Source: Desulfurococcus mucosus DSM 2162
Lineage (GTDB): Archaea; Thermoproteota; Thermoprotei_A; Sulfolobales; Desulfurococcaceae
DNA: 64,000 bases
Assembly (NCBI RefSeq): GCF_000186365.1
Contig: NC_014961.1
Span: 310,001-374,000, forward strand
Direction of reading: 5' to 3'
Shown here: piece after piece, positions 45,481-49,068 of the stretch
Layout of the letters: each line of letters opens with the position of its first letter
How positions within the stretch are numbered: position 1 is the first letter of the stretch
Program-made: the position numbers and the translations under genes
Notes under the pieces: generated by a model
Seen by the model: the letters and a program-made list of their open reading frames with translations, nothing else
Told to the model about the DNA's origin: nothing
The model's database searches: none

Positions 45481-47118
45481 TCACGCATTCCTGAAGAACT
45501 CAAGATACCTGAGAGCCTGCTCCCTCCCCATGAGGGCTAGCAGTGGGGCAGCCCTGGGGCCGCTTGGCTTCCCAACGTACACCATGTAGAAGTACCTGTA
45601 GAACTCGCCAATCATATCCCTCCTCATGCCGCCTGTGACGCTGGTCATAGCGTTCTTCACCGAGTCCTCGCTCCACTCGCCTATAGCCGTGAGGTTCTCG
45701 TAGAGCTTCCCGAGTAAAGCCCTGTACTCCACTGGCACCTCCCTCGCCCTCTTCTCAGCCTCCTCGAGAGTGTTAAGGGTGAAGACACCGGCTTCACCAC
45801 CATACTTCACCGCCCACGTGTATGCTCTCGGAATAGTCTCCAAAACCCTCTGCACCCCGTACTCCGTGGGCTCCTCTGGGAGAAGCCCCACGCTCCTCAA
45901 CCTCTTCAAGCCCTCGGTCCCCCACTTATCCCTCGGTATGATCTGTGCTAGGACGGCTAGGTGGGAGTATGGCACCTGCTCCGGCGGCTCCCTCGGCGGC
46001 TTCCCCTTCGGGTAGCTGAGCTCGTAGCTCCTCTTCAACAATACTTCCTCCTCCTCGTCCTTAGGCTTCTCGAGCCCATAGTATATTCTCTCGGCGCGAT
46101 AGTATTGACTATAGTACTGTGGCACCTCATGCAGCCCCACACTATACTTCTTCATCGGCGGCGTCTTCAACACTATGAACCTGTAGATGTGTGGGTGAGC
46201 CACCTCGAGCCAGTCGCGCGGCGTGAACCCTATGAAGTCACTGCTCCCCATGTCTGCAACCTGGCCGTCCGGCCGCCTCCACTCAACCCACTCGTATGGC
46301 AGCCCCTCAGGCGGCTTTAAACCGTAGACGTTGACGGCTAGATCCACGCAGCTATCCCTGCTCCCACCCGGCATCGCGTGATCCTTCCCGTACGGCTCGA
46401 AGTCTACTCCAAGAGTCCACCATACGCCAACCCACTCTATCCTCCACATGAGCTTCCCATCACTGATGTCTGCGACACCCCTGTAGCCGCAGTGCTCGCA
46501 CACGTATTCCACGTGATCCTCGTCCACGAGCCTCAATGCTTCAGTCGTATCTATCCTGCCACACCTCTCGCACACGGGTTCAACCGGGATCCAGTCCTCC
46601 GGATAAGGCTTCCTCCCCCTGTACTTGTTTACGACTCTCCTAACCTCCTCCCGCTTCCCCAGGGTGAGCTTCACGAAATCCCTCATCCTCCCCTTATACA
46701 TGTCCGTCGTGGTTACAACCTCTATGGCTCCATCCGTGAATTCACCTATGAAGGGGCCGAAGTCACTCCAGTAGTGCTCCACCCAGTTCCCATGACACCC
46801 CTTTGGATCCGGGACCCGTATCAACGGGTTCCCCTTGTACCTTGATGCCTCAGCAGGGTTCTGGAACTGCTTCAACTGGGAGTCCTTGCCCTTCCACGCG
46901 TCCTGAGTGTAGAGAGTAAGGTACTGCTTCACCCTGAGCCCCCGTTCACTCAGCAGCCTGCGCAACGTCTCAGCTATGATGATCTCCCCTCTCAGCCTCC
47001 CAACATGCTGCAGCCCGGAGACCGATAGCCCGCCGTTGAACACATATACCTCCTTACCCCTCTTCGTCAAGGCATCATAGAGGCTGTCAGCCAGCTCATC
47101 GATCCAGTGTTTCACCAT
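45481..47118 (-). CDS. lysS: Lysyl-tRNA synthetase, class I
   Basis: A ~545-residue archaeal class I LysRS charging tRNA-Lys. The HIGH-like motif is LSVSGLQHVGRLRGE near residue 40; a zinc knuckle pair CERCG ... CEHCG lies around 180-215; and the region that usually holds KMSKS reads PDGQVADMGSSDFIGF, a divergent form that I believe is common among crenarchaeal enzymes. The C-terminal helical anticodon-binding domain (from about 360) is complete. Start ATG 47118 has GGTG about eight bases upstream; GTG 47130 is an alternative. Convergent with the ABC operon. Confidence 0.92.
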   Translation of the reverse strand: MVKHWIDELADSLYDALTKRGKEVYVFNGGLSVSGLQHVGRLRGEIIIAETLRRLLSERGLRVKQYLTLYTQDAWKGKDSQLKQFQNPAEASRYKGNPLIRVPDPKGCHGNWVEHYWSDFGPFIGEFTDGAIEVVTTTDMYKGRMRDFVKLTLGKREEVRRVVNKYRGRKPYPEDWIPVEPVCERCGRIDTTEALRLVDEDHVEYVCEHCGYRGVADISDGKLMWRIEWVGVWWTLGVDFEPYGKDHAMPGGSRDSCVDLAVNVYGLKPPEGLPYEWVEWRRPDGQVADMGSSDFIGFTPRDWLEVAHPHIYRFIVLKTPPMKKYSVGLHEVPQYYSQYYRAERIYYGLEKPKDEEEEVLLKRSYELSYPKGKPPREPPEQVPYSHLAVLAQIIPRDKWGTEGLKRLRSVGLLPEEPTEYGVQRVLETIPRAYTWAVKYGGEAGVFTLNTLEEAEKRAREVPVEYRALLGKLYENLTAIGEWSEDSVKNAMTSVTGGMRRDMIGEFYRYFYMVYVGKPSGPRAAPLLALMGREQALRYLEFFRNA

Positions 47119-47174
47119 GCGGGACACCACAAAGGATACTATAGGTTGCCACTATCTAGATGGATGGTGAAAGC

Positions 47175-47182
47175 ATTTATAA
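47175..47182 (+). promoter_or_regulatory. TATA box before the structured RNA candidate
   Basis: GCATTTATAAGTC gives a TATA box 10-17 bp before the outer stem of the RNA candidate. The predicted start by usual spacing would be near 47203, slightly inside the stem, so either the start is atypically close or a weaker upstream box (ACTATAGG near 47150) is used. Confidence 0.45.
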
Positions 47183-47191
47183 GTCTTGGTG

Positions 47192-47357
47192 TTGCCCCTG
47201 GGATGATGATTGTGGGTTGGGGGAGGCAGTGCCCCCGGCTGTGAGGGGTGAGCCGGGGCGGGCCCCATGCCCCGTGAACCCGTACCGGAGGCGGCTTGGC
47301 TGCCCGGTGAAGGCATGGGCGAGGAGAAAGCCCCCAGATATGAATATCCAGGGGCAA
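47192..47357 (+). ncRNA. Candidate structured non-coding RNA (~166 nt, unassigned)
   Basis: A GC-rich segment between lysS and the NAD(P)HX repair gene with nested complementary arms: outer stem TTGCCCCTGG (47192-47201) with CCAGGGGCAA (47348-47357); second stem TGGGGG (47218-47223) with CCCCCA (47331-47336); hairpin A CCCCGGCT (47233-47240) with AGCCGGGG (47251-47258); hairpin B CCCATGCC (47264-47271) with GGCATGGG (47312-47319), topped by ACCGG/CCGGT and GCGGC/GCTGC around a TTG loop. The branching order is consistent and all stems are compatible. Preceded by a TATA box and followed by the nnr promoter. It lacks recognisable SRP RNA, RNase P RNA, tRNA or C/D box features; a 93-residue open frame across it has no protein-like character. 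Confidence 0.55.
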
Positions 47358-47367
47358 ACGGTGAAGG

Positions 47368-47375
47368 CTTATATA
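47368..47375 (+). promoter_or_regulatory. Probable TATA box of the NAD(P)HX repair gene
   Basis: GGCTTATATACTAGG follows the RNA candidate by ten bases; the predicted start is near 47398, giving a ~90-nt leader. A second box-like GCATTTAAGC near 47410 would give a shorter leader. Confidence 0.45.
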
Positions 47376-47490
47376 CTAGGTGAATCACCGGAGTCCTCAA
47401 TCCAGGCACAGGCATTTAAGCCTCGAAGCCGAGAAAAGTAGCTTGGTGGAGGTTTTCACACACACCTCCCCGTCGAGGAGGCTGATACCT

Positions 47491-49068
47491 GTGAAAGTGT
47501 GCAGTGTCAGCGAGATTAGACGCTTAGACGAGGCGGCTTCGAAAACCGGGGTGGGAAGCATCCCACTGATGGAGGAGGCTGCCTCAGCAGTATACACGGT
47601 TATCCTAAGGGAGTACGGTGTTGAAGGCAGGAGGTTCACCGTGGTTGCTGGAACAGGGAACAACGGCGGGGACGCCTTAGCTGTTGCAAGACGGCTTCAC
47701 TCAGCCGGCGGCATAGTCGAAGCCTTCGTCATCGGGGACCCGGGCAGGATGAGTGATGCAGCAGGCTTCAACCACCGCGTGCTCTCCGCGATGGGTGTAC
47801 CCGTGGCGACAGTCTCCTCAGAGGAGGGGCTTACAGCACTGGAGAAGTCTCTCAGATGGGCAGACATAGTGGTTTCAGGGTTGATCGGGGTTGGATTGAG
47901 GGGAGAGGTCTCAGGTCTCCATAGAAGGGTGATCGAGCTTGTAAACTCCTCTGGGAAACCGGTTGTAAGCATAGATATCCCCTCAGGCGTCGACGGGGAC
48001 ACCGGTCTCGTGAAAGGAGTAGCAGTTAAGTCAAGTGTCACAGTGGCGCTCGGCCTCCTGAAGTACGGGAACCTCCTTTACCCAGGCTACGACTACGCTG
48101 GGAAACTCTATGTCTCAACCCTCTCCTACCCGAGGAGCCTCATAGACTCTGTGACAGGAGAGGTGAACACCCCGATACCCATCCCTGAGAGGCCTAGATG
48201 GGGGCATAAAGGCGTCTTCGGGAAACTCCTCGCTGTAGCCGGGTCCAGATACTACTATGGCGCCCCCTACTATGTTGCATCATCATTCCTTAAGACGGGG
48301 GGAGGATACGCGAGGCTCGCCGCCCCGAAGGGAGTGATACCCTTCATTGCTTCGAGAGCACCCCAAGTAGTCTACGTGCCACTCGAGGAGACAGCCGAGG
48401 GCTCCATCGCATACGGCAACCTCGAGAAAATACTCAGCCTCATCGAGGAGCACGGGATAGACATAGTTGTCCTCGGCCCTGGTACATCACTCAACAGGGA
48501 GACACAGGAGCTGCTTAGAAGCCTTGTTGAAGCCCTGGATAAACCAGTCATTATAGATGGCGACGGCTTAACAGCCGTCTCAGAGAACCCTGGGTTGCTC
48601 AGGAAGAGGAAGGCCCCCACTATCCTGACACCCCATCCAGCCGAGTTCGCTAGGCTAACCGGGAAACCCCTCGCAGAGGTACAGGGGAACCCTGTGGAGC
48701 ACGTTAGGAAGGCATGCGTAGAGCTGGGATCATACATCGTCTATAAAACAGCGCACAGCCTCATATGCTACCCCAACGGCTACATATATGTGAACATGAC
48801 GGGCAACCCCGGTATGGCTAAGGCTGGAAGCGGCGATGTCCTGGCAGGCGTGATAGCCGGGCTCTACGGCGTCGGCTTAAGGGACCCGGGTGCAGCGCTC
48901 AGGATGGGGGTGCTAGTACACGGGCTTGCAGGCGATCTCGCAGCAGAGGAAATCGGCGAGGACGGGGTTACACCAGACACCTTAATGGAGCACCTGCCCA
49001 AGGCTGTCAGGATACTCAGGGAGAACCCTGGCTACGTGAGGGAGAAATACCTGCCCAAGGAGGTCTAG
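47491..49068 (+). CDS. nnr: Bifunctional NAD(P)H-hydrate epimerase / ADP-dependent dehydratase
   Basis: A ~525-residue two-domain repair enzyme that epimerises (N-terminal YjeF_N domain) and dehydrates (C-terminal ribokinase-like domain) heat- or enzyme-damaged NAD(P)HX, valuable in hyperthermophiles. Domain 1 shows VVAGTGNNGGDALAVARRLH and SIDIPSGVDGDTG. Domain 2 starts HKGVFGKLLAVAGS and contains GPGTSLNRET, IDGDGLTAV, TPHPAEFARLTG and the catalytic AKAGSGDVLAGVIAG. I set the start at GTG 47491 (MKVCSVSEI), with GAGGAGG nine bases upstream; the open frame continues back to 47380 but that part overlaps the promoter. Single gene between two structured elements. Confidence 0.92.
   Translation: MKVCSVSEIRRLDEAASKTGVGSIPLMEEAASAVYTVILREYGVEGRRFTVVAGTGNNGGDALAVARRLHSAGGIVEAFVIGDPGRMSDAAGFNHRVLSAMGVPVATVSSEEGLTALEKSLRWADIVVSGLIGVGLRGEVSGLHRRVIELVNSSGKPVVSIDIPSGVDGDTGLVKGVAVKSSVTVALGLLKYGNLLYPGYDYAGKLYVSTLSYPRSLIDSVTGEVNTPIPIPERPRWGHKGVFGKLLAVAGSRYYYGAPYYVASSFLKTGGGYARLAAPKGVIPFIASRAPQVVYVPLEETAEGSIAYGNLEKILSLIEEHGIDIVVLGPGTSLNRETQELLRSLVEALDKPVIIDGDGLTAVSENPGLLRKRKAPTILTPHPAEFARLTGKPLAEVQGNPVEHVRKACVELGSYIVYKTAHSLICYPNGYIYVNMTGNPGMAKAGSGDVLAGVIAGLYGVGLRDPGAALRMGVLVHGLAGDLAAEEIGEDGVTPDTLMEHLPKAVRILRENPGYVREKYLPKEV

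Follow-up and report, generated by a model that had tools for sequence, protein, structure and literature searches.

A damaged copy of an archaeal mini-transposon, free of protein genes and made of a promoter and a TnpB guide-RNA part alone, in Desulfurococcus mucosus

The segment at positions 47192-47357 of the 64,000-nucleotide stretch of Desulfurococcus mucosus DNA analysed here (the window), between lysS and the NAD(P)HX repair gene, is very probably part of a 218-bp decayed, non-autonomous IS607-family transposon that carries a truncated guide RNA of TnpB, the CRISPR-ancestor nuclease. The element is a damaged copy of a mini-transposon in which a promoter and the guide-RNA part of a TnpB element occur alone. 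A first-pass annotation had read the segment as a multi-stem RNA candidate, possibly a novel structural RNA of Crenarchaeota or a leader acting in cis. It was right that the segment is non-protein, has a promoter and is related to a structured RNA, but its boundaries were drawn too narrowly, the unit being 47144-47361 with the upstream TATA box included. The GC-richness it described (0.67 vs 0.49-0.58 around the segment) holds, as do the TATA-like TTTATAAG before the segment and TTATATA after it; the former lies inside the repeat unit and the latter, promoter-like sequence outside. The segment was also said to lack the conserved sequences of SRP RNA, RNase P RNA, 5S rRNA, tRNA and C/D box RNA, and an Rfam search at gathering and permissive thresholds indeed gave only chance hits.

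The host genome (D. mucosus O7/1T) is a single contig of 1,314,639 bp, in which a DNA search found seven further partial copies of the segment; about seven copies in the genome bear the promoter, the window element counted among them. Side-by-side reading of the copies revealed a common unit that opens with the left end GG(C)TGTTNCCATTTANATGGNTGGTGAAAACNTTTATAAG and, beyond an internal part, closes with the right end ...CCAGGGGCAAACGG, after which the sequences diverge. Copies that have the left end, the TATA box and the right end ...GGGGCAAACGG in common lie in unrelated flanks, and their ends are shared with the autonomous IS607 element described below. The window unit is bounded by GG on both sides (47144-47145 and 47360-47361), and no target duplication was found, flanks being unrelated in all copies. 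In IS607 elements, GG is the overlap dinucleotide at which recombination takes place (PMC4058570). Neither a TnpA nor a TnpB gene occurs within the 218 bp; a coding explanation was rejected, as the 93-aa frame that spans it retains no domain and just a faint trace of the TnpB tail. An empty site was sought by synteny in two genomes of the genus (G001 and G002), but gene order is not preserved there and no syntenic lysS/NAD(P)HX intergenic region exists, the genes not being adjacent and the DNA not alignable. Under the terms searched, the D. mucosus O7/1T genome paper mentions no insertion sequences or MITEs (PMC3111991). Two decayed omegaRNA copies in this genome (L121 and L125, at G000:C1:292173 and 155527) have a different upstream sequence of ~90 bp in common (CTAAGGCTAGCTAGGCTAG...CATCGGTTTAA), perhaps a second, older type of short element.

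Table 1. Parts of the window element and its flank (positions within the window)
Feature	Position	Strand	Remarks
Non-autonomous IS607-family element, internally deleted, 218 bp	47144..47361	+	Five sisters (L031, L032, L034, L035, L036; 300-339 bp) with 82-88% identity and ends in common
Left crossover GG	47144..47145	+	GG begins every copy
Left end with TATA box TTTATAAG at 47176-47183	47144..47183	+	Homologous to the left end/promoter of the autonomous element (L038:996 on), where tnpA follows
Predicted transcription start (about +/-2)	47206	+	Placed ~26 nt from TATA box centre
Left arm of 10-bp closing inverted repeat	47192..47201	+	Partner 47348-47357; upstream of predicted start
Hairpin CCCCGGCT/AGCCGGGG	47233..47258	+	5' extension of D. 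mucosus short copies
GGCCCCA deletion scar	47261..47267	+	In sister L031 the repeat is present twice in direct orientation, 79 bp apart
Truncated omegaRNA (reRNA) core	47243..47361	+	Scores 83.4 bits (E 1e-20) with covariance model R1, against 124-158 bits for type-1 D. mucosus sisters that are intact
Helix CCCGT/ATGGG (47279-47283/47315-47319) around GGCGGC/GCTGCC (47290-47295 with 47299-47304)	47279..47319	+	Covaries in A1
Right-end hairpin	47330..47355	+	Two adjacent mismatches in window copy
AACGG, 3' strand of a proposed pseudoknot and element right end	47357..47361	+	CCGUU partner deleted in window copy
Putative guide position, flanking DNA TGAAGGCTTATATACTAGGT	47362..47381	+	Contains TATA box of downstream gene

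The only parent found is a complete element elsewhere in the D. mucosus chromosome (L038), which encodes a serine transposase and TnpB, is closed by the same right end as the short copies and is an IS607-family element. Its transposase, a serine recombinase of 215 aa, has a MerR-type HTH domain and a resolvase domain and overlaps the TnpB of 415 aa, which lies downstream and has a Cas12f1-like TNB domain. The closest PDB sequence to the transposase is ISC1926 TnpA (6dgc, E 8e-63), aligned through ARVSS, with further matches to ISC1904 and IS1535, and TnpB has a more distant PDB match in ISDra2 TnpB (8bf8, E 2e-6), as well as matches to Cas12f/Cas12m. The omegaRNA copy of this parent (L033/L038) forms the 3' end of tnpB and extends up to the right end. 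Over their last 148-160 bp, L031, L032, and L034 show 84-89% identity to the parent 3' end. The shared 3' part of the short copies is the tnpB 3' end, where TnpB guide RNAs (omegaRNA/reRNA) are encoded. An IS200/IS605 origin was rejected, since no Y1 transposase gene was found in the D. mucosus genome and the parent carries a serine transposase; an intact TnpA is present in the genome. One sister, L032 (G000:C1:1110865-1111203), is a mosaic: its first 45 bp come from the autonomous element (97.8% identical to the left end of L038, including the tnpA promoter region) and the remainder is nearly identical to L031, a pattern which suggests that elements recombined close to the TATA box. The genome has further TnpB genes, at least five (L046-L050), with different 3' ends.

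The omegaRNA core is conserved across Desulfurococcales with strong covariation, also in copies without tnpB. For the RNA alignments, 38 tnpB-3'-end regions were gathered from this order; alignment A1 holds 14 sequences of type 1 and A2 holds 23 of type 2. In A1, 96.5% of the cells of 35 pairs are paired, 12 pairs changed on both sides, and the covariation score is 0.234, compared with 0.125 in shuffles (reached by 0 of 500) and 0.023-0.066 in slid versions. In A2, 94.2% of cells are paired, 18 of 32 pairs changed on both sides, and there are 107 double-change cells vs 30 (0/500 shuffles). The helices are HB, with the loop GTGCCGTT; HC, closed by CCCRY/RYGGG; and the right-end hairpin, which covaries strongly in A1, A2, and the standalone-only alignment A3 (see below). 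Covariation in relatives, by which the first-pass annotation had wished its RNA to be judged, thus exists for the intact omegaRNA family (A1-A3, 0/500 shuffles). A pseudoknot is proposed between CCGUU in the HB loop and AACGG at the right end; the two strands are complementary in 37 of 37 rows of A1 and A2 and, being invariant, gain no support from covariation. Every copy runs from the shared end CAAACGG directly into unique sequence, and by analogy with IS607 reRNA (PMC11061315) this flank would act as the guide. The intact sister L031 folds with a z of -3.82 against shuffles, and its centroid reproduces the covarying helices. Searches of the intact relatives against Rfam and RAGATH at gathering and permissive thresholds returned only chance hits.

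The window copy keeps part of this structure. Compared with L031, 79 bp are missing between the GGCCCCA repeats, along with 24 nt of the right-end loop and smaller gaps. The 79-bp loss took away the 5' hairpin together with the GTGCCGTT loop, the partner of the right end, and with them the CCGUU strand of the proposed pseudoknot that intact copies possess, whereas the helix at 47279-47319 has been retained via compensatory changes. When folded from the predicted start, the window RNA has a z of -0.13, 85 of 200 shuffles being as stable. The window copy is most likely inactive, an ordinary remnant. The perfect arms noticed earlier do exist (10 bp at 47192-47201/47348-47357, 8 bp at 47233-47240/47251-47258 and 47264-47271/47312-47319, and several of 6 bp), but the stems are not all mutually compatible as had been held, since the right-end hairpin needs 3' bases that the 10-bp arm also occupies. 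Of the stems put forward, the conserved RNA includes the right-hand ones alone (47290-47304 inside 47279-47283/47315-47319, and the hairpin of the right end): the 8-bp stem 47264-47271/47312-47319 competes with the covarying helix and is regarded as a chance pairing, and the 10-bp closing stem is probably a DNA-level repeat of left and right end, given that its left arm lies upstream of the predicted start. The 166-nt RNA is somewhat more stable than shuffles (-83.5 kcal/mol, z -2.15, 4/200), but the opposite strand folds equally well (z -2.20).

As for the neighbouring genes, the insertion adjoins an apparent lysS promoter (47118-47147; CTATAGTA, minus strand, ~26 nt before the ATG at 47120), so that lysS expression may have changed. 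The NAD(P)HX gene is probably annotated too long at its start (47380-47493); homology in G001/G002 begins near V-K-V-C-S-V-S-E, which suggests a start at GTG 47491 rather than at 47380.

Across the 18 genomes that have both, model R1 found 218 omegaRNA loci vs 59 TnpB matches, the ratio being 15 vs 1 in D. mucosus and 18 vs 3, 16 vs 5, 34 vs 5, and 45 vs 6 in other genomes; all these counts are approximate because thresholds and filters differ (TnpB at E 1e-20 including fragments, the RNA at E 0.01 with stricter filters). Lists made for the D. mucosus genome itself hold 17-21 omegaRNA loci, decayed ones included. The copies read in two of the other genomes (L145-L156, L165-L174) are largely decayed in the one with 45 loci and 6 TnpB matches (G070) and largely intact in Desulfurococcaceae archaeon AG1, with 34 and 5 (G053). 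Among 40 loci away from TnpB matches in seven genomes, most retain no more than the last 40-80 tnpB codons and two or three are longer tnpB remnants; many have the left end, the TATA box, an additional hairpin on the 5' side (GATGGGAGCNNNGCTCC or GATGAGGGGCNATGCCCC) and, past the right end, unique flanking DNA. A TnpB-independent pattern scan of 84,980 species genomes returned 57 standalone loci, 28 linked loci, 3 fragments, and 11 that were uncallable, mostly from Desulfurococcales, with a few from other Thermoproteota and archaeal MAGs; the MAG KUA_Bin18 contributes many.

In the standalone-only alignment A3 (21 sequences, 5' hairpin included), 93.7% of cells are paired and double-change cells number 69 vs 23.5 (0/500 shuffles); the signal is weaker in A4 (11 sequences; 17 vs 7.9, 0/500). 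This covariation indicates that RNA structure is kept where no protein is encoded, but the changes may partly have been inherited from tnpB-linked parents rather than have arisen in standalone loci, so that A3 and A4 are strong, not independent, proof of standalone RNA function. Among the standalone loci, some may be no more than 3' ends left over from dead elements. In the left flanks, G is found at -1 in 31 of 32 well-formed left ends (A in the window copy) and C at -2 in only one, a pattern that may represent a DGGG TAM. An exact TATA box occurs in 12 of 32 standalone loci outside D. mucosus, where 1.6 are expected; the antisense count of 11 is useless as a control, since the motif is near-palindromic. 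Since the box and the left end overlap, it may have been conserved for transposase binding, not for transcription.

A complete element of this type consists of a promoter-bearing left end, the omegaRNA scaffold from the tnpB 3' end and the right end, beyond which the host flank would act as guide. By analogy with studied relatives, three steps may be envisaged, namely, I) the IS607 serine transposase (TnpA) would move the element in trans, with excision and insertion at the GG crossover; II) the RNA would be transcribed with 15-20 nt of flank as guide and then bound by TnpB in trans; and III) TnpB would cut the uninserted allele, and repair would copy the element back, favouring its retention. 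In the window copy, the guide position would span the TATA box of the NAD(P)HX gene. It is an evenly balanced proposition that Desulfurococcales harbour dispersed, multi-copy, promoter-bearing guide-only IS607 elements, with one or a few TnpB proteins serving many guides in trans and each guide guarding its own site, the window copy being a decayed member.

Such elements might instead be passive MITEs or deletion derivatives, whose structure is kept solely for DNA recognition by the transposase and which would play no part as RNA even where intact. Archaea commonly carry small derivatives that lack a transposase (PMC2678158, PMC3119063), but the G-U pairs, the internal helices at a distance from the ends and the location linked to tnpB suit an RNA, as do the z of -3.8 of the intact sister and its centroid with the covarying helices, and this explanation is considered unlikely. 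Somewhat less probable still is that the window copy itself works as a trans-acting guide RNA, its truncated scaffold being transcribed, loaded into TnpB and protecting the insertion. It has retained the promoter, one covarying helix with compensatory changes and the exact right end; against this stand the lost 5' hairpin and pseudoknot loop, the two mismatches in the right-end hairpin, the non-consensus base before the left GG, a fold from the predicted start no better than shuffles and the impaired complex formation seen when the equivalent loop was mutated in ISFba1 (PMC11061315). It is very improbable that the element acts in cis as a leader, one of the roles first suggested, or as a promoter for lysS or the NAD(P)HX gene: it lies 14 bp upstream of the lysS GTG start, its near-symmetric TATA box might drive transcription towards lysS as well, and a TATA box belonging to the NAD(P)HX gene itself is located inside the guide position, but that promoter lies outside the element and no such sequence is present upstream of the gene in G001 or G002. 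Finally, a new host-encoded crenarchaeal structural RNA is scarcely credible, since the stable 166-nt fold (z -2.15) and the lack of an Rfam match are outweighed by multiple copies with transposon ends and unrelated flanks, homology to tnpB 3' ends and a position that is not conserved in relatives.

With the segment read as a decayed IS607-family element, a false 'new RNA' is removed, and an archaeal IS607 TnpB guide RNA lacking in Rfam receives a structure-supported covariance definition. What is retained most often in one archaeal order is the guide RNA rather than the nuclease. Should the standalone copies prove to be expressed and used, gene-free short repeats of the kind reported in Staphylothermus would become guide-RNA genes, and the idea of a parasite that takes both transposase and nuclease from a selfish element could be put to the test in cultured hyperthermophiles. 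An incomplete literature search turned up no archaeal order in which promoter-bearing, guide-only IS607 elements are described as the commonest form, and this abundant group is apparently undescribed.

Trans-acting omegaRNAs are known in families other than IS607. Altae-Tran in 2021 and Meers in 2023 reportedly described those of IscB/TnpB, with guides encoded away from the nuclease, and the present loci resemble them in having the guide apart from the nuclease, although those belong to other families. Staphylothermus marinus has 14 short, gene-free, IS607-related MITEs of ~260 nt (PMC2678158); compared by description only, these are alike in organism family, IS607 relationship and absence of genes, and they were described via upstream-region similarity and inverted repeats, their RNA content not being recognised there. 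The PATEs of Haloquadratum are likewise gene-free derivatives of TnpB elements without target duplication and with core deletions at direct repeats, but they are of IS605 type, have terminal palindromes and go down to 52 bp, and omegaRNA is not reported for them (PMC3119063). Archaeal IS200/IS605 omegaRNA systems, including SisTnpB1, also combine TnpB with a guide RNA from the tnpB 3' end and are active at 75 C (PMC10640517, PMC12558985); they belong to a Y1-transposase family, whereas D. mucosus has no Y1 transposase. A close likeness in kind is to the IS607 TnpB reRNA of ISFba1 and relatives (RAGATH-18-derived; PMC11061315), which shares the family, the location at the tnpB 3' end, the termination at the right end, the guide directly downstream and a pseudoknot, here a proposed one, that joins the 5' apical loop to the bases immediately preceding the guide and was seen by cryo-EM in ISFba1. 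A G-rich left-flank motif is common to both, the ISFba1-type TAM being AGGAG/GAGGG (PMC11061315) and the motif here G at -1 followed by GG. Unlike the ISFba1 reRNA, the window copy has no pseudoknot partner, and the family as a whole differs from the ISFba1 type in its archaeal sequence and helices, in matching neither Rfam nor RAGATH, and in its standalone copies with a promoter-like box.
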